Shown: positions 101 through 40,215 of the stretch, piece by piece
Position numbering within the stretch: position 1 is the stretch's first letter
Layout: each line of letters starts with the position of its first letter
IMG/VR virus record: IMGVR_UViG_3300047173_000096
Location: 1 to 40,215 of that record
Length of the DNA stretch: 40,215 nt
From: a virus
Reading direction: 5' to 3' (one strand)
Notes under the pieces: model-generated
The model's input: only the letters and a program-made list of their open reading frames with translations
Database searches by the model: none
What the model was told of the DNA's origin: nothing
Position numbers and translations under genes: made by a program

Positions 101-943
101 ATGACACAAGTTCAATCAAGTTATTACTCAGTAACACCAGCAGAAGTTAGATACTGCAAAAATTTAGAACCTAATGCAAAACTTCTTTATGGAGAAATAA
201 GTGCGCTTTGCAATCAAGAAGGATTTTGTTGGGCTTCAAATCGTCATTTTTCTCAACTTTATGATGTTGATATTCGTACTATTCAAAGATGGCTCGATTC
301 ACTTCAAAAAAATGGATTCATAGCTATTCAAAAAGATAAAAACAAATTTAACTCACAAAGACGTATATACTTGAGTCATGCTTTTAAAATATTAATTACA
401 GAAGGACAAAAATGTCACCCCCCCATGACAAAAATGTCACCCATAATATTAAAAGATAATAATACAAGTAATACTATTATTGCGGACCCTCCAAAGAAGA
501 TGCCTGCCGGCGGCAATAATAATTTTCATAAATGCTTAGAAAAATGCGAAGACCTTTCCTTGAAGCAAAAGATCCAGATAAGCAAATTTCCTGAAGAAAT
601 CGTAGCCCAGGCTATTCGTTATGCATATCATCCAACTACCAAAATTCAAGGAGGCGCAATCGGACGACTTAAACTTATCCAGTATTTCATCAGAAATCCC
701 GATCAGTTCGAACCAACAATGAAAGATTTAGACAATCCTCCAGAATTAAAAACCAAAAAAGATGTTCTTTTGGGAAAATTTAAAAAAGGCAAAATTTACA
801 ACGGTTATGAATTTATCCAAGATGAAATCGGCGTTGGATTTTTAAAACCTGGAATGATGCAACCGTATTCTGTGAATTGGAATGTCTCAAATTTTGAAGC
901 CGAATTTTTAAAATTGTTAACAAAATTAAAAATAGATTCTTGA
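101..943 (+). CDS. Replication initiator, allele 1 (helix-turn-helix N-terminus)
   Basis: 280 residues. Residues about 15-95 form a helix-turn-helix domain of the kind found in plasmid and phage initiators, with hydrophobic stretches such as NAKLLYGEISALC followed by ASNRHFSQLYDVDIRTIQRW as the recognition region. A Pro/Lys-rich linker begins with IIADPPKKMP and leads to a C-terminal domain from about residue 140. I start at ATG 101 because GGAGAT sits 4-9 bases upstream; an in-frame TTG at 89 lies inside the ribosome binding site. The linker DNA carries direct repeats that look like origin iterons, as in the lambda O gene. The N-terminal half differs completely in the allele at 39735-40215 while the leader and linker are identical. 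The initiator role is inference from domain plan and iterons; a plain transcription factor is possible. Confidence 0.75.
   Translation: MTQVQSSYYSVTPAEVRYCKNLEPNAKLLYGEISALCNQEGFCWASNRHFSQLYDVDIRTIQRWLDSLQKNGFIAIQKDKNKFNSQRRIYLSHAFKILITEGQKCHPPMTKMSPIILKDNNTSNTIIADPPKKMPAGGNNNFHKCLEKCEDLSLKQKIQISKFPEEIVAQAIRYAYHPTTKIQGGAIGRLKLIQYFIRNPDQFEPTMKDLDNPPELKTKKDVLLGKFKKGKIYNGYEFIQDEIGVGFLKPGMMQPYSVNWNVSNFEAEFLKLLTKLKIDS
405..482 (+). other. Putative intragenic replication origin (iterons plus AT-rich stretch), allele 1
   Basis: The 16-base unit GACAAAAATGTCACCC occurs at 405-420 and exactly again at 427-442, a 22-base period. Each unit contains the inverted repeat GACA-AAAA-TGTC. A run of almost pure A/T with ATAATATTAAAAGATAATAA follows from 443 to about 482. 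Iterons followed by an AT-rich unwinding region, in the part of an initiator gene encoding the interdomain linker, is the layout of lambdoid origins. Only two full units are visible, so the number of binding sites is low. Confidence 0.5.
475..506. repeat. Second shared block of the initiator locus (identical to 40184-40215)
   Basis: 32 identical bases encoding IIADPPKKMP in the same frame in both initiator alleles. The window ends inside this block at 40215, so the true length of the match to the right is unknown. It marks the right-hand crossover boundary of the variable cassette. Confidence 0.9.
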
Positions 944-951
944 ATGTTTTT

Positions 952-1122
952 ATGCTTAGGGATGATAAACAATTTGCAGAAAAATTAAAGATAAACTATG
1001 GTTTGGCTACCTTGAAAATAAACAAGCGTTATTCTCAAGATACGAAGACTGGCAAAGAATATTACTATTACTTGCCTCCAGGCGTCTTTCGTCAAGCTTT
1101 GCAGCAATTGTGTGAATCTTGA
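952..1122 (+). CDS. Small protein downstream of the initiator
   Basis: 56 residues from ATG 952; an in-frame TTG at 940 overlaps the initiator stop codon and is an alternative start. It is basic and tyrosine-rich, with the stretch KEYYYYLPPGVF. No motif is recognised. Its position directly after the initiator suggests co-transcription with it. Confidence 0.5.
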   Translation: MLRDDKQFAEKLKINYGLATLKINKRYSQDTKTGKEYYYYLPPGVFRQALQQLCES

Positions 1123-6635: not shown

Positions 6636-6780
6636 TTCTTTCTTTTTAGAATTTTTCTTTCTTTTGGGCTATCGTTAAGAGTTTTTAGATATCTCCTCCG
6701 GAAGGGGAGTTTCTTAAGAGGGGAAACCATTTTCAGATGTAGCCTGCGTCAATGCTCGGCTATCTTTATCCGCAAGATAT
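6636..6780 (+). ncRNA. Candidate structured small RNA
   Basis: Downstream of the promoter the AT-rich background gives way to a more structured segment. CTCC and GGAG pair around 6695-6712, flanked by TTAAG / CTTAA arms. GGCTA and TAGCC can pair over a longer distance. A perfect 6-bp hairpin TATCTT / AAGATA closes the region at 6762-6780. There is no coding frame. Transcription beyond 6780 would be antisense to the toxin. The family is unknown. Confidence 0.35.
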
Positions 6781-7049
6781 TATTCATACACATCTTTGCG
6801 ATGATCTATTTCTACAATGAAAACTACGACTCTATCCTCGAAGACCTTGTAAATAATTCTAAAATCACCTACACGAATTCGCCGATGTTCCTTCCATTCT
6901 TTTGTTAAAGGCTTACAGTAATTATTAGGTGCTACGGTAAGTCTTTTTTCTATTGCTGATTTGATTCTATCTCGAATATTTCTAGGAAACTTTCTTAAAT
7001 ATTCTTCAACTCCAATATCATAGTCTATTCTGTATCCAGTCTCTTCCAT
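6780..7049 (-). CDS. RelE/ParE-superfamily toxin
   Basis: 89 residues, typical length. The C-terminal core EHRRIRVGDFRIIYKV followed by VVVFIVEIDHRKDVY is the conserved RelE-fold sheet with the basic residues expected of an mRNA interferase or gyrase-type toxin. Its start lies inside the antitoxin gene (25-base overlap). It probably stabilises the element by post-segregational killing. A plus-strand promoter lies just beyond its 3' end. Confidence 0.85.
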   Translation of the reverse strand: MEETGYRIDYDIGVEEYLRKFPRNIRDRIKSAIEKRLTVAPNNYCKPLTKEWKEHRRIRVGDFRIIYKVFEDRVVVFIVEIDHRKDVYE

Positions 7050-7273
7050 AATTCCTCATGTGATATCGTTTTGCAGCCGCCTTCAATCCATTTCTTCTCT
7101 TTTTCTTCAGCTCTCCTAGCAAGCAACATATCTTCATACTCTTCAAGCCAATCTTCTACAACCTTCTTCACTACAGCTGACATACTCATATGCTTTTTAT
7201 TTGCTATGATCTCGATTATCTCCATGTGATCAGGATTCAATGTAACTTGTAGCCTTGGATTCTTTGTAGCCAT
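7025..7273 (-). CDS. Ribbon-helix-helix antitoxin
   Basis: 82 residues. RLQVTLNPDHMEIIEIIA followed by MSMSAVVKKVVEDWLEEYE is a ribbon-helix-helix DNA-binding domain, and the acidic C-terminal tail would wrap the toxin. An AGGAGG ribosome binding site precedes ATG 7273. It is first in the two-gene operon, the normal order for relBE-type pairs. Confidence 0.8.
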   Translation of the reverse strand: MATKNPRLQVTLNPDHMEIIEIIANKKHMSMSAVVKKVVEDWLEEYEDMLLARRAEEKEKKWIEGGCKTISHEELWKRLDTE

Positions 7274-8478: not shown

Positions 8479-8805
8479 ATGTCACTTTTAATACAATCGA
8501 AATTAGAGAATCACAGAGATATTTACAATAGAATGAAGAATGAAGGGCGCAAGGATTTAATAGCCCAATTGGTGCTTGAAAGGATAGATAAAGAAATAAA
8601 AATACTAGAAAGAAAGGTTAATAATGTTGAAGAAACACGGCAAATACGAAGGAAAGAAAGCATTAAACATAGATATACCGCTAAAACTTCACAATTTTTT
8701 AAAGAAACATTCAGTCGATACCGGCTTATCTATGGCGAGTATTGTTGTGCAATGCTTAGAAGAATTACAACTAACGTGCTCCGGGCGCAAGAAGGTACCA
8801 AATGA
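8479..8805 (+). CDS. Hypothetical protein upstream of the integrase
   Basis: 108 residues from ATG 8479 with AGGAT upstream. The first 50 residues look like a normal helical domain, with ENHRDIYNRMKNEGRKDLIA. The second half overlaps the ribbon-helix-helix gene at 8624 in another frame and looks less natural. Its stop overlaps the integrase ATG as ATGA, which favours real translation to 8805. A frameshifted gene is the alternative. Confidence 0.5.
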   Translation: MSLLIQSKLENHRDIYNRMKNEGRKDLIAQLVLERIDKEIKILERKVNNVEETRQIRRKESIKHRYTAKTSQFFKETFSRYRLIYGEYCCAMLRRITTNVLRAQEGTK

Positions 8806-8845
8806 GCACAGAGATTCTAAATTGGATGAAGGAAAGTCTAAATAG
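8624..8845 (+). CDS. Ribbon-helix-helix protein
   Basis: 73 residues. ALNIDIPLKLHNFLKKHSV followed by GLSMASIVVQCLEEL fits a ribbon-helix-helix (Arc/CopG-type) DNA-binding domain. It overlaps the preceding gene by 182 bases and the integrase by 44. It may be an excisionase-like or autoregulatory partner of the integrase. The domain signature makes it real despite the overlaps. Confidence 0.65.
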   Translation: MLKKHGKYEGKKALNIDIPLKLHNFLKKHSVDTGLSMASIVVQCLEELQLTCSGRKKVPNEHRDSKLDEGKSK

Positions 8846-9707
8846 TTTTGCGGAACAGCTATCGTTAAGCAAAAGTAAAGTGACGGTAGATGCTTATAAG
8901 TATGACGTGGCTATGTTCCTTGAATATCTTCTAGATAAGAAAATAAAGAAGCTAAGCAATATCAAGCCCGATCATATAGTAAATTATCTAGGATGCTGTA
9001 AATCGAAAGGAAAAAGCGATGCAAGTATTAATAGATATTACATGTCGATTCGAGCTTATTGCCGCTTCTTACGTAGAAATAAAGCCATTGTTTTTGATTT
9101 AACACAGGATATAACGCCTCCTAAAAATAGACAGAAAGCGCCAAGGATTCCAACGATTGAAGAAATAGAAAAGATTCTCGCGCAGCCTAACATTGAAACT
9201 GAATCAGGGCTAAGAGATAGGGCAATACTTGAGCTTTTATATTCATCAGGTTTGCGAGCCTCTGAACTATGCGACCTTGAGATAAAAGACATACAAGAAA
9301 ACCAAGTGTTAGTAAGGTGCGGTAAAAGAAGTAAGACGCGCAGTGTGCCTATAACAAAAGAAGCCTATTACTGGATTAAGCGTTATATAGAAGAACATAG
9401 AGGACATGACCAAGGATATTTGTTTGTAACCAAAATGTATAAGCAAATACGAAGACAATTACTATGTGCTTTGGTTGGTGACTATGCTAGAAAGGCAGCT
9501 ATTGAAGGCGTGACAACACATACTTTAAGACATGCTTGCGCTACACATTTGCTTGATGAAGGAGCCGACTTAAGAATGATTCAAGAGGTATTAGGGCATA
9601 GTTCGATTGCAAGCACACAGAGATACACGCATTTGACTAGTAATAAGATTCAAAGCATGTTTCAACAATTCCACCCAAGGAAAAAGAAAGATGAACCGAG
9701 AGAATGA
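8802..9707 (+). CDS. Tyrosine recombinase (integrase, XerC/D-like)
   Basis: 301 residues, the usual length of Xer-type recombinases. The N-terminal core-binding SAM-like domain spans about 10-105 and the catalytic domain about 115-290. Catalytic residues are visible: R152 in SGLRASEL, a Lys in GKRSKTR (about 175-178), H240 and R243 in HTLRHACATHLL, H266 in LGHSS and the nucleophile Y275 in TQRYTHL. It may integrate the element or resolve dimers of a circular plasmid form. Chlamydial plasmids also carry such recombinases. It is translationally coupled to the gene upstream (ATGA). Confidence 0.95.
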   Translation: MSTEILNWMKESLNSFAEQLSLSKSKVTVDAYKYDVAMFLEYLLDKKIKKLSNIKPDHIVNYLGCCKSKGKSDASINRYYMSIRAYCRFLRRNKAIVFDLTQDITPPKNRQKAPRIPTIEEIEKILAQPNIETESGLRDRAILELLYSSGLRASELCDLEIKDIQENQVLVRCGKRSKTRSVPITKEAYYWIKRYIEEHRGHDQGYLFVTKMYKQIRRQLLCALVGDYARKAAIEGVTTHTLRHACATHLLDEGADLRMIQEVLGHSSIASTQRYTHLTSNKIQSMFQQFHPRKKKDEPRE

Positions 9708-11155: not shown

Positions 11156-11899
11156 ATGAGGCGCATAGCAATATCTCTAAGCAAAGGTGGAGTAGCCAAA
11201 AGTACTAGCTCAGTATCTATAGCACATGGCTTATCTCTAAAGGGAATGAAAGTTTTGCTAGTGGATACTGATGATCAAGGCCAAGATGCTTTTCTTTTAG
11301 GATCGACGCCCAAATATGGACTAGCTGATGTAATCACAAATGGTATTTCTTTAGACAAAGCTATGCATGAAGCTAGAAAGAATTTGTGGGTTCTTGCAGG
11401 TGGTAAATCTTTATCGGGTGTGAAAAGAGAAATCGGACGAAAAGAATTTGGAGCAGAACAGACTCTTGCAGAATCGTTAGCTAGCATTCAAGGAAAGTTT
11501 GATTTTGTCATCATTGATACGAGCCCATCATGGGACACTTTAACTATCAATGCGCTATTCTATGCTACTGAAGTTATCACGCCTGTTTCATTAGAGATTC
11601 TTACCTTAAACAGTCTCATTGAGTTTTCAAATAGCCTTATAGCAGTACAGAAATTCAATAAGAAACTCAGTCATCGTTACATTTTGCCTACATTCTTAGA
11701 TGGTCGAGTTAAGAAATCAAAAGAGATTCTAAAGCAACTTGAAAAACATTATCCCGAGAAAGTTTGTGAGCCGATTAAATATAGCGTGAGGATTTCTGAA
11801 TCTGCTGGCTTTGGGCAAACAATCTATGAATATGCGCCGAGTTCTTCCGGAGTAAAAGACTATGAAAAGTTAGTGCAAAGGATATTAAAAGATGGCTAG
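11156..11899 (+). CDS. parA: ParA-family partition ATPase
   Basis: 247 residues, complete. Deviant Walker A KGGVAKST at 10-17 with both signature lysines, then LVDTDDQGQ at 36-42 and Walker B FVIIDTSPS at 118-125 (D121). It would move the replicon by forming ATP-dependent gradients on the nucleoid. GAGG precedes the ATG. The following gene overlaps by 8 bases and should supply the centromere-binding partner. Chlamydial plasmids also encode a ParA (pGP5-D). This supports a plasmid-like prophage state. Confidence 0.95.
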   Translation: MRRIAISLSKGGVAKSTSSVSIAHGLSLKGMKVLLVDTDDQGQDAFLLGSTPKYGLADVITNGISLDKAMHEARKNLWVLAGGKSLSGVKREIGRKEFGAEQTLAESLASIQGKFDFVIIDTSPSWDTLTINALFYATEVITPVSLEILTLNSLIEFSNSLIAVQKFNKKLSHRYILPTFLDGRVKKSKEILKQLEKHYPEKVCEPIKYSVRISESAGFGQTIYEYAPSSSGVKDYEKLVQRILKDG

Positions 11900-14080: not shown

Positions 14081-14983
14081 TTACGCATCTTTAAACTCCA
14101 CATAGCCGTCCCACATAGGCTGGTAGAAAAGGTATGTGTTACCCTCGATACCAAACATGCGGTTCTTTGCTATTCTTATTTTTACTTTGTTAGGGTCCGA
14201 TGTATTGTCTGTCCGGGCACATCTATGTAAAACCAGGACATTGTCTGCATATTGCTTGATGGAAGATGAGCCCTTCAGTGAGTGGATTCCGACTTCTTCG
14301 CCTGACGTTGCCGATTGACGAGGATGACAGATAAGAAGAAAATGCATAGAAAGGGAAAAAGCTAATTCATGAAGACGTTTCACTGTATCGTCAATAGCTT
14401 CATGTAGTTTTTCTCTGCGCGTGTTAACTAAGTAATCGAGATGGTCGAGCATTACAATTTCAACACCCAATTCTTTAGCGTGTTTTAATTGCACTCCAAG
14501 CTTAACAATGTCTGTACCAATAGTATTAGGGTTAATATAGACTTTGTAACGTGTACACCATTCGTCGAATTGTTCGTTCTCATGTGCGCTGAAGTTTTGC
14601 ATTTTCATGGGTCGTCTCAAAACGATAGAAGCCAGCTTACGCATTGTCGTTTCGGGATTCATCTCCCAAGAATTAATCCATACAGGAATGCCTTGCATCG
14701 CAGTATTGACCATCATCTGTGTGCAGAATGTTGTCTTTCCTGCGCCTGTATCTGCTGTGATAACTGTGACTTCGCCTTTGCGCAAGCCTTGAAGGTAATG
14801 GTCAAGAGCACGCCAGCCAGTAGAATAGCCTTTGTCAATCTCATTACGAAAGTGACGAGGCAAATTACCGACAGGTATTATGCAATCATCGACCGAAGAA
14901 GATGCAGAAATAAAATTCTCTAAAGGATTTATTTCTTCTTCCGGATCGTATTGAACTCCAAAATGTGCTCCCGATTCTTCCAT
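14081..14983 (-). CDS. DnaB-like replicative helicase (RecA-fold domain)
   Basis: 300 residues, consisting of little more than the ATPase domain. Walker A ADTGAGKTT at 77-85, WEMNP with the catalytic Glu near 107, Walker B MLDHLD at 178-183 and sensor LLICHPRQ near 216-223 are all present, followed by SLKGSSSIKQYADNVL, typical of DnaB/gp4-type helicases. It lacks the N-terminal collar of DnaB. It unwinds the fork after loading at the initiator-bound origin. Chlamydial plasmids also encode a DnaB-like helicase. It overlaps the upstream gene by 55 bases. Confidence 0.9.
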   Translation of the reverse strand: MEESGAHFGVQYDPEEEINPLENFISASSSVDDCIIPVGNLPRHFRNEIDKGYSTGWRALDHYLQGLRKGEVTVITADTGAGKTTFCTQMMVNTAMQGIPVWINSWEMNPETTMRKLASIVLRRPMKMQNFSAHENEQFDEWCTRYKVYINPNTIGTDIVKLGVQLKHAKELGVEIVMLDHLDYLVNTRREKLHEAIDDTVKRLHELAFSLSMHFLLICHPRQSATSGEEVGIHSLKGSSSIKQYADNVLVLHRCARTDNTSDPNKVKIRIAKNRMFGIEGNTYLFYQPMWDGYVEFKDA

Positions 14984-15939: not shown

Positions 15940-16514
15940 TGGAAGTCCCTCGTGTCACTGAAATTTTGCGAGCCTATACAAACTACGATCAAGTTCCAAA
16001 AGATATCCTAGAGAAAGCTGCCGCAAGAGGAACAACAGTTCACGCATTATGTGCAGGGCTCGCTAAAGGTAATTGGATTCCTGATGGCATGATTGGCGAA
16101 GAACATATAGGATACGTAAATTCATTCAAGAAGTGGTCTGAAGCCCAAGTTAAAAAGTTTGTTATCATTGAAAAACGCTTCACGGATGAAGAACGTTCAT
16201 ATTCTGGACAATTAGATTTCGTGGTTGTGGGAAGTGATGATCAACTTTATTTGGTAGATTTGAAAACGAGCTCAAGGCCTCAAAGAACTTATCCAGTTCA
16301 AATGGCCGCTTACAATTCACTATTAAAAAACAGTCAAGTCAACGTTAAAGGCGCAATGCTAGTATATCTCGATAAGAATGGTGAATTCCCTGAGATACAT
16401 TACATGGAAGATATGTCTGAAGAATTTAGCATTTTCGTTTCAGCTCTACAATGTTGGCATTATTTTAACAAAAGGAAACAAAAGAATGGAACAATTGAAT
16501 CTACAGCAGATTGA
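15939..16514 (+). CDS. PD-(D/E)XK exonuclease (RecB/Cas4-like)
   Basis: 191 residues from ATG 15939. H35 in GTTVHAL, then SYSGQLDFVV (D93) and YLVDLKTSS (D107, K109), then QMAAYNSL (Q121, Y125) give the order H-D-(D-X-K)-QxxxY of RecB-like nucleases. It would resect DNA ends to feed the annealing protein encoded next, like lambda exonuclease with Beta. The two genes overlap by 29 bases. Confidence 0.85.
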   Translation: MEVPRVTEILRAYTNYDQVPKDILEKAAARGTTVHALCAGLAKGNWIPDGMIGEEHIGYVNSFKKWSEAQVKKFVIIEKRFTDEERSYSGQLDFVVVGSDDQLYLVDLKTSSRPQRTYPVQMAAYNSLLKNSQVNVKGAMLVYLDKNGEFPEIHYMEDMSEEFSIFVSALQCWHYFNKRKQKNGTIESTAD

Positions 16515-17112
16515 AACATTAAATATCTATCAAAGAATTTTAGGTATTATGTCGGAAATTGATTATATCCAAAAAGGGTCTGATAAAGTAAATGGACAAT
16601 ATCGATTTGTAAGTCATGATCAAGTAACAGCTGCTATTCATCCTCTCTTAGTAAAATATAGAATAATTGTCATCCCTACAGTAGAAGAATGCATTCAAGA
16701 AAATAATCGCACACGAATCAAATTGGCTGTTGTATTTAGAAATGTTGATAAACCAGATGAAGCTTTTGCTGTCTATCAATATGGTTATGGAGTTGACAAT
16801 AGTGATAAAGGAATTGGAAAAGCCGTTTCATATGCATTTAAATACGCTTGTCTGAAGGTATTTTGCCTTGAGACTGGTGAAGATCCTGATAATGATGCTA
16901 AAGCTTCCTATGAGCCAGAAAAGTGTCTAGAATTCGATTCTTTATTGCCACAGGATTATACGGCAGCAAAATTGAGCAAAGTAAATAAATTTATCGAAGA
17001 AAGATCTAAAGCATTTAATAAACATCCTGAAGATATTAAACGCGAAGCAATCAAAAGAATGCAGGAATTCCTAGCTGCGGTTGAGAAATGGAATCCTAAG
17101 AAAAAGGAATAA
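16486..17112 (+). CDS. erf: ERF-family single-strand annealing protein
   Basis: 208 residues from ATG 16486 with AAGGAAA upstream; the longer frame to 16378 is out-of-frame with the nuclease. The N-terminal domain has GQYRFVSHDQVTAAIHPLL and the hallmark DKGIGKAVSYAFKYACLK followed by TGEDPDND, as in P22 Erf and relatives. It anneals complementary strands and may help circularise incoming DNA. Confidence 0.9.
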   Translation: MEQLNLQQIETLNIYQRILGIMSEIDYIQKGSDKVNGQYRFVSHDQVTAAIHPLLVKYRIIVIPTVEECIQENNRTRIKLAVVFRNVDKPDEAFAVYQYGYGVDNSDKGIGKAVSYAFKYACLKVFCLETGEDPDNDAKASYEPEKCLEFDSLLPQDYTAAKLSKVNKFIEERSKAFNKHPEDIKREAIKRMQEFLAAVEKWNPKKKE

Positions 17113-37415: not shown

Positions 37416-37463
37416 GCTTTATTCCTTTATTGCTTTATTCCTTTATTGCTTTATTCCTTTATT
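37416..37463 (-). repeat. Triple 16-bp tandem repeat containing ribosome binding sites
   Basis: Three exact copies of AATAAAGGAATAAAGC (minus strand), each carrying AAGGA. The first copy encodes the last residues and stop of the portal gene; the last abuts ATG 37415. The same words form the leader at 10541-10576 on the opposite strand. Confidence 0.85.
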
Positions 37464-39433
37464 GCCTGTTGAGGAACTACTGTATCGGCTGCTGCTAACC
37501 TTTGCTCTTCCTCTACCCCACGAATAATTCCAAGTATCTTCTCTGCATGTTCGATTCCCATTCCTTGCTGCTTAAGTTCCATCTCTTGAAACTCTTTACC
37601 TGCGCGAATGATATCCAAAACACTTCTAGATCTTTCTTCTTGAGCCGCTGCCAATCGTTCTTCTGATAATGCTGCGTCGTATTTAATCCTACTAAGCCGC
37701 TCTTCTCCCAAGGCAACATCCGTAAATGCTTTCGCTTCCAGCAACTTGTTGACTCTTTGTTTGTCTTCCAATTCCACTTGCTGTGCTGCTTGTGCCGCTT
37801 GAGTCTGCTGCTCGATCTTTTCCATGAACTTTTTCTGTATTGGGAATGGTGACAACTCCCATAACATTTCGTCTGGTACTTGCGTGCCTCCCATCTTCAT
37901 TGTCCATGCTTGCAAGAACGCAGATGACTTTTGCGAATCTGTCATCACTGCTTCTACAAGATCAACATCATAATCCAAGAAAGTTCCATTATAAAACTCA
38001 GGTGTCGGTTCTTCTTTCAGCAATCTTTCTACTTTGTCCGGCGTGTACTTTTGAATCAGCTTCAATACTTTCTTACTCAATAGGCAATGGGCTTCTCTAA
38101 AATTGTCCATAATGGGACCCAGTTGCATGATAGCCATCGATTGCTTCATCTTAAACAATACGCCGCTCATCCTGTCTGTCTGGTCATTCCCCAACGCTCC
38201 CAAATCAACAAAGTCTTTAATGTCCGCATCGAATGAATCCTGTAATGCAAACAATGCTTCTGGTATATTCGGCGCATCAATTCTTTCTGCATCACTCAAC
38301 TCAAAGCCTGGATTGAAGAATACAATCTTTCCCTGACCTGTCTGAAACAATGACTTCGGATTAGAAACTGCTCCAGACTTCGCCTTCCATCCACTTCCTA
38401 TTTGCGAATCAACGATATCCAAAAGTTTGGACTTTCGCATGTTGTACTCTTCCTGGCTGTCTCTTAATAGTCTCTGTAAAGATTGATATTTCCATTGGTA
38501 CAAATCATACGAAGGTTCAAACACACAGTAAAAGGGCACGAAAGGGTACTCTCCCAAGCCCCAAGGATCCTCACCGCTATATAACAGCCGATTTTCTACT
38601 ATTATATTATACTCGACAGTCTTGTAGTACCCCTCTATAACAGCAAGGTTTGGAAAGAATTGTTGCATCATTTCAAGACGCTTCTTATTCCCTTTCCACG
38701 GCTTCTGCTCTCCCGTAACCTTGTCGATCAAAAGCCATCCCTTTTTATATCTTTGCTTCCAGTACTCGTTGTATGCCAGTAATTCTTGTAATCCCCATTG
38801 TCTTGCATATGGCTCATACGTAAACTTTTCGTCTCTGTTACCATATCCCATTGCATCGACTTCCCTCTCACAACCTGGCACCAGTGACTTAATGACATCT
38901 TTGCTCAAGTACTTACGTCGAGCCATAAAAGTGCAGTCTTCTAAGTCTAATCGATAGCTGAATGGGTCCCAGATCACATCATTCCAGTTATCTAAGTGAA
39001 AGGAAACTCGTCCATTCACATAATCTTGTCGATAATCAACCCAAGGCGATACCCACGAAACTCCTGATATCAAACTTCCATGCCTTGCTTTCTGCATGAT
39101 TCGATATCCATTGTTGCTGCTCATTGTCTGTCGAAGAAGTTCTGTCAATTGCTCTGCTGTCTTTGGATTTGAGTTTTCTCTTGCTACAACAACTTCTTGA
39201 TGCTCGTTAGCGCTCAGATACCCGCTTACCATGTTGATGGTCTTTCGCGACTTATTGAACGTGAAAGCGTTTCGTCTCTCTTCATTCAAGTATCTCAGCT
39301 GATCCAAACTCCACTGATTTCCAAGATAAAATCCCACATCTCGATATGCTTCAGCGTAATATGTGTTAAGAAGCATGTACGCGCGGTTGTAATCTTGCGT
39401 GAAATCACTGACAACATCGTAATCTGTCGGCAT
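37451..39433 (-). CDS. Portal protein (P22-type)
   Basis: 660 residues, near the size of P22 portal. The N-terminus (DVVSDFTQDYNRAYMLLN, then GFYLGNQWSLDQLRYL and RKTINMVSGYLSANE) is that of the P22-portal family. A helical, Gln/Ala/Glu-rich barrel follows at about 540-640 (QQTQAAQAAQQVELEDKQR). It forms the dodecameric channel for DNA entry and exit and binds the terminase. A 19-bp element variant ends 18 bases before its start, so it heads the late head operon. Confidence 0.9.
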   Translation of the reverse strand: MPTDYDVVSDFTQDYNRAYMLLNTYYAEAYRDVGFYLGNQWSLDQLRYLNEERRNAFTFNKSRKTINMVSGYLSANEHQEVVVARENSNPKTAEQLTELLRQTMSSNNGYRIMQKARHGSLISGVSWVSPWVDYRQDYVNGRVSFHLDNWNDVIWDPFSYRLDLEDCTFMARRKYLSKDVIKSLVPGCEREVDAMGYGNRDEKFTYEPYARQWGLQELLAYNEYWKQRYKKGWLLIDKVTGEQKPWKGNKKRLEMMQQFFPNLAVIEGYYKTVEYNIIVENRLLYSGEDPWGLGEYPFVPFYCVFEPSYDLYQWKYQSLQRLLRDSQEEYNMRKSKLLDIVDSQIGSGWKAKSGAVSNPKSLFQTGQGKIVFFNPGFELSDAERIDAPNIPEALFALQDSFDADIKDFVDLGALGNDQTDRMSGVLFKMKQSMAIMQLGPIMDNFREAHCLLSKKVLKLIQKYTPDKVERLLKEEPTPEFYNGTFLDYDVDLVEAVMTDSQKSSAFLQAWTMKMGGTQVPDEMLWELSPFPIQKKFMEKIEQQTQAAQAAQQVELEDKQRVNKLLEAKAFTDVALGEERLSRIKYDAALSEERLAAAQEERSRSVLDIIRAGKEFQEMELKQQGMGIEHAEKILGIIRGVEEEQRLAAADTVVPQQAIKE

Positions 39434-39537: not shown

Positions 39538-39566
39538 TTGACAAAATTCTGTTTTACGGTTAGATT
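39538..39566 (+). promoter_or_regulatory. Initiator promoter
   Basis: Perfect TTGACA at 39538-39543 and TAGATT at 39561-39566 with an optimal 17-base spacer. The expected start near 39574 gives a leader of about 160 nt that contains both the stem-loop and the inverted repeat before the initiator ATG. Confidence 0.7.
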
Positions 39567-39592
39567 GATGGCGTAAATTTAAAGAAAGGAAA

Positions 39593-39617
39593 AGCCCACC
39601 TCTTGGTGAGATGGGCT
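39593..39617 (+). promoter_or_regulatory. Stem-loop in the initiator leader
   Basis: Arms 39593-39602 and 39608-39617 pair at 9 of 10 positions (AGCCCA / TGGGCT base) around TTGGT. No U tract follows, so it is not a simple terminator. Copy-number control by attenuation or antisense RNA pairing at this loop is possible. Confidence 0.5.
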
Positions 39618-39633
39618 GAAGACTCATAACCCC

Positions 39634-39729
39634 GAGTAAGAATCGGAGGTCAAGTATAATAACGATTCACAATGTCGATTATTATACCTGATCTCCAGAT
39701 TTTTGCAAGAAAAGAAATTATTTGGAGAT
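39634..39729. repeat. Terminal direct repeat, right copy (identical to 1-96)
   Basis: Same 96 bases as the left end of the window, including the inverted repeat (39647-39694) and the GGAGAT ribosome binding site. It is followed by a different initiator allele. Confidence 0.95.
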
Positions 39730-39734
39730 CATTA

Positions 39735-40215
39735 ATGTCAATTTCATCGCAAGACAATTCAACAATCCATAATGTTAGACTCGATTCACATTTCACAATA
39801 ACATCAAATTTAACCCCAGAAGACCCTAACTTAAGTTGGGCTGCTAAAGGGTTACTTTGGTACATACTTAGTCGACCGAAAGATTGGTCTGTTCATACTT
39901 GGCAATTAGAAAAAATATATCAAGGTAAAGCCAGAGGAAACAAAAAAGATGCAATTCAAAGCATAATGAAAGAGCTAAGAAACGCCGGATATATTAAATA
40001 CATAAAGTACAGAGATTCAAGGGGTAAGTGGTCGCATAGATATGATGTTTATCCAATGCCAGTTAAGGATTTTCAAAAAATTTTTCCAGAACCGGCTCAA
40101 CCAGATACGGTTCATCCAGACGCGGTTAAGCCCGTTGTATTAACAAGTACTGATTCACCAAGTACTGAATTAATAAGAAAGAATATTATTGCGGACCCTC
40201 CAAAGAAGATGCCTG
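39735..40215 (+). CDS. Replication initiator, allele 2 (partial at window end)
   Basis: 160 codons visible, open at the right edge. After a 25-residue lead, NLSWAAKGLLWYILSRPKDW, then DAIQSIMKELRNAGYIKYIK, then KWSHRYDVYPMP form a winged helix-turn-helix of the plasmid and phage initiator type, unrelated in sequence to that of allele 1. A linker with tandem P-E-P-A-Q / P-D-T-V-H / P-D-A-V-K follows, then IIADPPKKMP shared with allele 1. The C-terminal domain would be that encoded from 507 onward if the circle closes. Confidence 0.75.
   Translation, partial: MSISSQDNSTIHNVRLDSHFTITSNLTPEDPNLSWAAKGLLWYILSRPKDWSVHTWQLEKIYQGKARGNKKDAIQSIMKELRNAGYIKYIKYRDSRGKWSHRYDVYPMPVKDFQKIFPEPAQPDTVHPDAVKPVVLTSTDSPSTELIRKNIIADPPKKMP
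40086..40130 (+). repeat. Tandem 15-bp iterons in initiator allele 2
   Basis: Three abutting units, CCAGAACCGGCTCAA, CCAGATACGGTTCAT and CCAGACGCGGTTAAG, share CCAGA-NN-CGG-Y-T. They occupy the same linker position as the iterons of allele 1 but have a different sequence and period. An AT-rich stretch (40131-40190) follows, as in allele 1. Confidence 0.5.
40184..40215. repeat. Right-hand shared block, equal to 475-506
   Basis: All 32 remaining bases of the window match the linker of allele 1 in phase, which closes the circle in sequence terms. Confidence 0.9.

Follow-up and report, generated by a model that had tools for sequence, protein, structure and literature searches.

Putative initiator genes at both ends of a probably circular viral genome

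The stretch of DNA analysed here (the window, 40,215 nt) is the whole of IMG/VR record IMGVR_UViG_3300047173_000096, and both of its ends fall at the locus of a putative replication initiator. At its start lies a complete initiator gene on the plus strand (101-943, allele 1), which encodes 280 aa with an HTH_36 winged-helix N-terminal domain, a linker and a shared C-terminal domain; at its end, on the same strand, lies a second reading frame (39735-40214, allele 2), with an N-terminal domain and the linker, truncated at the contig end. Ahead of both genes stands the same leader: bases 1-96 are repeated exactly at 39634-39729 (96 bp), where the second copy holds part of a predicted antisense promoter, the leader inverted repeats and the Shine-Dalgarno sequence, and the match stops at base 97. 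The start of the linker, which opens the constant part of the gene (475-506), recurs exactly at 40184-40215 (32 bp), a match bounded by the end of the contig. The inserts between these repeats, 97-474 (378 bp) and 39730-40183 (454 bp), are unrelated (global alignment score 18.5 vs 2.8 +/- 6.9 for shuffled sequences). Alignment and shuffles thus confirm the exact end repeats around unrelated inserts that a first-pass annotation of this DNA had described. Its further claim, that two different N-termini are fused in frame to the same linker, also holds, as both frames run into the shared linker; if the frame of allele 2 is continued at position 507, an uninterrupted protein of 305 aa results. Two repeats of 96 and 32 bp that lie in register, with one copy at each contig end, cannot be due to chance.

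Closing the window into a circle leaves one initiator and places it between portal and terminase. This order was already expected from the first reading of the sequence, and it agrees with the arrangement of the relatives, which is portal / initiator / terminase. The same reading had held everything else to be constant between the two alleles; this is demonstrated for the 128 bp (96 + 32) in which the identity of the two backbones is directly visible. Telomere-like or packaging ends were considered for the contig and rejected, since it ends at a locus inside the genome and the contigs of most relatives are broken at other positions. Contig breaks are frequent at the initiator locus (L014/G011, L022, L029 and L074), an observation that is suggestive only, as short fragments raise the expected number.

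The gene set of the window is that of a phage-plasmid, with portal, terminase and major head protein next to ParA and the initiator. The portal protein is of the P22 type (37451-39433, minus strand; family match) and served as the anchor for finding relatives; the terminase large subunit lies at 1334-2665 on the minus strand (phrog_2, 8.8e-22), and a ParA partition ATPase (11156-11899, plus strand) is 70% identical to ParA of Rhabdochlamydia plasmids. Family matches further identify an Erf-type single-strand-annealing recombinase (16378-17112, plus strand), a XerD-like recombinase (8802-9707) and a DnaB-like helicase (14081-14983, minus strand), the latter a possible partner of the initiator C-terminus. 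A likely toxin-antitoxin pair, made up of a ParE-like toxin and a DUF6290/ribbon-helix-helix antitoxin, is located at 6780-7273. The initiator module (101-943) is reversed relative to terminase (1334-2665) and portal (37451-39433) and splits the packaging genes, as it does in the relatives that could be read at this point.

The portal search yielded 30 contigs with portal proteins 76-86% identical to that of the window. Exact end overlaps of 41, 75, 99 or 127 bp, typical of circular contigs, were present in 6 of 17 relatives compared, and some further relatives had overlaps that were slightly imperfect. From these overlaps, together with the closure of the gene order in the window, we infer circularity; the best reading of the window is therefore a circular phage-plasmid of about 39.7 kb with a P22-type portal. 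Its host is probably a member of the Chlamydiota, although binning errors are possible: the sole confirmed portal relative in a scan of 84,980 genomes (81%) belongs to a Chlamydiales metagenome-assembled genome. Its contig of 5.3 kb (L074, JAJFUY010000172.1) further encodes part of an initiator, an N-terminal fragment with relatives in the present family, and stops at the linker. Portal homologues, mostly distant, were found in 11 of 234 genomes of Chlamydiota, the sole phylum scanned in this way. The ParA match to Rhabdochlamydia plasmids also speaks for a chlamydial host; as to extrachromosomal upkeep of the prophage, it is only suggestive. No tailed chlamydial phage was found in the open-access literature searched.

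Domains, repeat arrays and leader of the initiator gene

The N-terminus of allele 1 belongs to HTH_36 (PF13730; E=1.5e-10, 41.2 bits vs a curated cut-off of 25). Allele 2 gave no match to the RepA_N Pfam family at E<=0.01 and matched HTH_36 only below threshold. For both N-termini the best PHROG matches are replication-initiation families and DnaD-like loaders. Among public phages, the N-terminal domain of allele 1 is nearest to replication proteins of Lactobacillus, Enterococcus and Staphylococcus (about 50% identical to Lactobacillus phage vB_Lcr_AB1), and the N-terminus of allele 2 is about 35% identical to Rep of Lactococcus phage TP901-1. A sequence search of solved structures with both N-termini returned nothing significant, and neither initiator was matched in a search of NCBIfam. 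Structure models of both alleles, built from three-row alignments and of modest quality (mean pLDDT 60 and 63), show a winged helix at the N-terminus and a low-confidence linker where the repeats described below are encoded. The allele 1 model resembles many regulators. For the allele 2 model (mean pLDDT 60) the first three ranks are taken by 4pql, 5kbj and 4pt7 (Z 6.1-6.9, rmsd 3.0-7.4 over 77-90 residues), which we take to be staphylococcal RepA structures; a common fold can give such Z values. The shared C-terminal domain (476-940, plus strand) carries the motif MPAGGNNNF; the family has eight C-terminal classes, of which this is one. Neither a separate helicase-loader gene nor a lambda-P-like partner was recognised in the window. 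An AAA+ helicase-loader-like ORF, identified by motifs, lies just downstream of the initiator in seven relatives (L013, L015, L016, L017, L018, L019 and L028); it follows some C-terminal classes, while others, including that of the window, come without it. The initiator would thus consist of a winged-helix N-terminal domain, a linker whose DNA may serve as the origin, and a C-terminal domain that presumably recruits the helicase machinery.

Each swapped block contains its own repeats. We compared the best local direct repeat of each of 24 family genes with 1000 codon shuffles and found iteron-like arrays at p<=0.01 in 12 of them, the remaining half having no significant array by the same test. 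The centres of all 12 significant arrays fall at 0.37-0.55 of the gene length, which places them between the two domains. In allele 1 the array is a pair of GACAAAAATGTCACCC at 405-420 and 427-442 (405-442, plus strand; period 22, p=0.002), after which the DNA appears A+T-rich. The array of allele 2 (40086-40127, plus strand; p=0.033) is made up of three units of 15 bp, CCAGAACCGGCTCAA / CCAGATACGGTTCAT / CCAGACGCGGTT.., and apparently A+T-rich DNA comes after it as well. Taken without its relatives, the array of allele 2 is weak evidence; L030 (p=0.001) and L018 (p=0.003) have arrays of the same period in the same place, and the units of L030 (CCAGAACAGG / CCAGCTACGG) resemble those of allele 2. 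The A+T content of the 60 bp after the array reaches the 88th-89th percentile in the two window alleles, and averages the 72nd percentile over the 12 significant genes. The claim that the swapped blocks include an origin gains support here, since each has its own array between the two domains, as in the relatives. Judging from this arrangement, each N-terminal domain may bind its own repeats. The N-terminal domain and the iterons would then move jointly, bounded by the constant leader on one side and the constant linker on the other, and a new origin would come with the protein that reads it.

The leader region (39538-39737), compared with its counterparts in 20 relatives, has features of its own. 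A predicted initiator promoter (TTGACA-17-TAGATT, 39538-39566) lies on the plus strand; on the minus strand are a predicted antisense promoter (TTGCAA-16-TATAAT, 39681-39708), whose GCAA box recurs in 20 of 21 leaders, and a predicted intrinsic terminator (39593-39617), which together would produce an antisense transcript of some 87 nt (~39674 to ~39588). A minus-strand terminator is predicted in 19/21 leaders (0.4 expected from mononucleotide shuffles; 2 on the plus strand), and antisense promoter and terminator occur as a pair in 10/21 (0.1 expected by the same shuffles). The promoter consensus alone is weak evidence, with 10/21 leaders vs 4.7 expected. A hairpin predicted by folding, TGATCTCCAGAT/ATTTGGAGATCA (39689-39731, plus strand), covers the Shine-Dalgarno sequence; it has a pairing arm in common with an upstream inverted repeat (39645-39696), so that the two structures are predicted to be mutually exclusive. 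Folding predicts a paired Shine-Dalgarno sequence in 20 of the 21 leaders, with a mean z-score of -2.8. A search of the leader against Rfam gave nothing above any gathering score. By these predictions the constant leader resembles the regions through which antisense RNAs set the copy number of plasmids, and the RNA of ~87 nt encoded in it would limit translation of the initiator.

Shuffling of initiator domains among relatives

At every relative locus that could be read, one initiator stands between portal and terminase and runs in the direction opposite to both. No second full initiator was found at any of these loci, and no record among the relatives had more than one match to the C-terminal domain of the window. 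Single-linkage clustering of 24 initiator genes, both window alleles included, separated 6 classes of N-terminus and 8 of C-terminus, which are combined in 14 ways. The N-terminus of allele 2 recurs on other C-termini (64% in L030, 47% in L018), and the C-terminal class of the window stands behind other N-termini in L026 (~62%), L031, L033, L004 and L024. In the pair L029/L033, whose portals are 90.5% identical in DNA, the end of the leader is common to both and is followed by unrelated N-termini at the same breakpoint. Directly after the initiator of the window, an orphan tail of 56 aa (952-1122, plus strand) corresponds to the end of another C-terminal class, that of L009, L010 and L006 (52.8% over 53 aa to L009), and is an apparent scar of an earlier exchange. 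The domain swap proposed from the window is thus borne out by family-wide shuffling, by the L029/L033 pair and by the orphan tail, and the search for further N-terminal variants that had been suggested as a check turned up types other than those of the window, which are counted among the six classes given above. A small additional HTH-like ORF was observed between leader and initiator in L024, L026, L027 and L033.

These relatives were found through the portal. No confirmed relative came from protein scans of viral contigs in which the C-terminal domain or either N-terminal block served as query, and a DNA search for the PAGGNNNF motif, written as a degenerate pattern, added to the known family members only one apparently unrelated contig.

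The leader itself changes quickly. Its identity between relatives has a median of 0.55, does not exceed 0.74 in the best distinct pair, and is 0.68 for a pair with portals 90.5% identical. Against such fast change among relatives, a match of 96/96 between the two copies in the window indicates that their common backbone is very recent.

Two probable population alleles and their precedents

Taking these results together, we consider it quite probable that a circular phage-plasmid of ~39.7 kb, probably of Chlamydiota, was assembled through a locus at which the population holds two alleles of an initiator with its origin inside the gene. The assembly path would have run from allele 1 through the backbone into allele 2, and the two alleles would sit in sister genomes, one allele per genome. 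That the window captures a mixed population had been proposed at the outset; the lack of a second initiator in the relatives, the circular contigs of several of them and a leader identity of 96/96 against a maximum of 0.74 all support it. The unequal end overlaps (96 vs 32 bp) count against it, as a simple assembly-graph bubble does not predict them.

Alternatively, the assembly could be chimeric, the block of allele 2 coming from another co-occurring phage and the contig having been wrongly extended via a short shared stretch. The visible identity amounts to just 96 + 32 bp, and the N-terminus of allele 2 has close relatives in other phages of the family (L030 and L018), both of which speak for such an error. 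We nevertheless regard it as unlikely, because all 96 bp of the leader agree in a part of the locus that is among the quickest to change, and because the block of allele 2 re-enters exactly the same linker at its other side.

Less probable still is a true two-initiator replicon, with both genes on one molecule through tandem duplication, a dimer or a cointegrate. Both blocks are present in the contig as written, and the small HTH-like ORF ahead of the initiator in four relatives might be taken as a parallel; two full initiators, however, occur at no relative locus, the second copy in the window breaks off after 32 bp of shared sequence, at a point where the end of an assembly path would be expected, and a single closure suffices to restore the portal-terminase order. 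Programmed switching, with N-terminal blocks exchanged inside a single lineage by a recombination system dedicated to this task, in the manner of phase variation, would suit the sharp, in-frame breakpoints and the XerD-like and Erf recombinases encoded in the window. It appears very improbable, as tblastn found no silent third block elsewhere in the window, leader and linker have no 8-mer in common, direct or inverted, that could act as paired recombination sites, and ordinary homologous or annealing recombination fits the family pattern. Finally, that the variable protein is an HTH regulator and the repeats its operators is hardly credible: HTH_36 and winged-helix folds do occur in regulators, many of which match the allele 1 model, but the best PHROG matches are to replication proteins, allele 2 is ~35% identical to TP901-1 Rep, an AAA+ helicase-loader-like ORF (by motifs) directly follows the gene in some relatives, and the repeats lie within the gene instead of ahead of it.

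The exchange of the N-terminal part of an initiator is itself already known from plasmids, PLE satellites and Gordonia phages, and the window is a further case. Going by the published description, the closest precedent appears to be pPR9 versus pSK41, staphylococcal RepA_N plasmids that differ by the replacement of ~500 bp with the N-terminal domain and the origin, which lies inside rep, while the C-terminus (>97%) and the upstream control region (99%) are unchanged (PMC5703833). The incoming N-terminus of pPR9 is a pfam13730 HTH, as is that of allele 1, and the mini-replicons proved compatible in experiments (PMC5703833). The antisense RNA that controls the copy number of pSK41 measures ~83 nt (PMC5703833), compared with ~87 nt predicted here. 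Unlike these plasmids, the present case concerns a tailed phage-plasmid, probably chlamydial, deduced from a metagenome. In the PLE satellites of Vibrio cholerae, the RepA_N N-terminal domain and the origin vary together and are exchanged while the C-terminus stays nearly constant; the pairs were shown to be cognate, and the swap escapes an origin-directed nuclease (PMC8263062). PLE origins are situated in a noncoding region, whereas the origin-like repeats of the window are inside the initiator gene. Closely related Gordonia phages have initiators with near-identical C-termini and unrelated winged-helix N-termini, for which recombination was invoked (PMC10684548, Fig. 5E); that case consists of two isolates with no origin or iterons reported, ours of a probably mixed assembly with iteron-like arrays.

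Phage initiators offer a further comparison. The lambda origin lies in the middle of O (PMC7466680), the N-terminal half of which binds the iterons (PMC4488673), and a lambda hybrid whose replication region is that of P22 is free of the block that an origin plasmid imposes (PMC3349717). In lambda O, SPP1 G38P and 80alpha ORF20, an N-terminal DNA-binding part is followed by iterons, an A+T-rich stretch and a C-terminal part (PMC7466680, PMC4488673, PMC5499656), an order that the window may share; they differ from it in that there is no clear full-length homology and that plasmid-like control by antisense RNA is predicted here. Annealing proteins have been tied to phage mosaicism (PMC5499656), which makes the Erf-type recombinase of the phage itself a candidate for the exchange. 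Recombination, possibly by this protein, would have moved the swapped block. By analogy with the systems described above, the swap might alter incompatibility or escape an origin-directed block.

Plasmids that swap the front half of their initiator stop excluding one another. A more tentative possibility, about which we have considerable doubt, is that in this chlamydial phage-plasmid lineage the antisense-RNA leader and the exchangeable N-terminal/iteron block act as two fast-changing identity systems, and that sister genomes with the same leader and different blocks coexist. If so, related phage-plasmids could share a cell or escape origin-directed exclusion. The points of interest in the present case are the probable host, the breadth of shuffling in the family and the predicted antisense-RNA leader. 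For the analysis of metagenomes, it illustrates that mismatched near-repeats at contig ends can reflect population variation and not merely bad assembly. In a phage group with a probable link to Chlamydiota, the window provides a sharply bounded natural example of an initiator and its presumed origin swapped as a unit, and the many N-terminal/iteron pairs and C-terminal classes of the family allow direct tests of cognate recognition, of incompatibility and of escape from origin-directed blocks.
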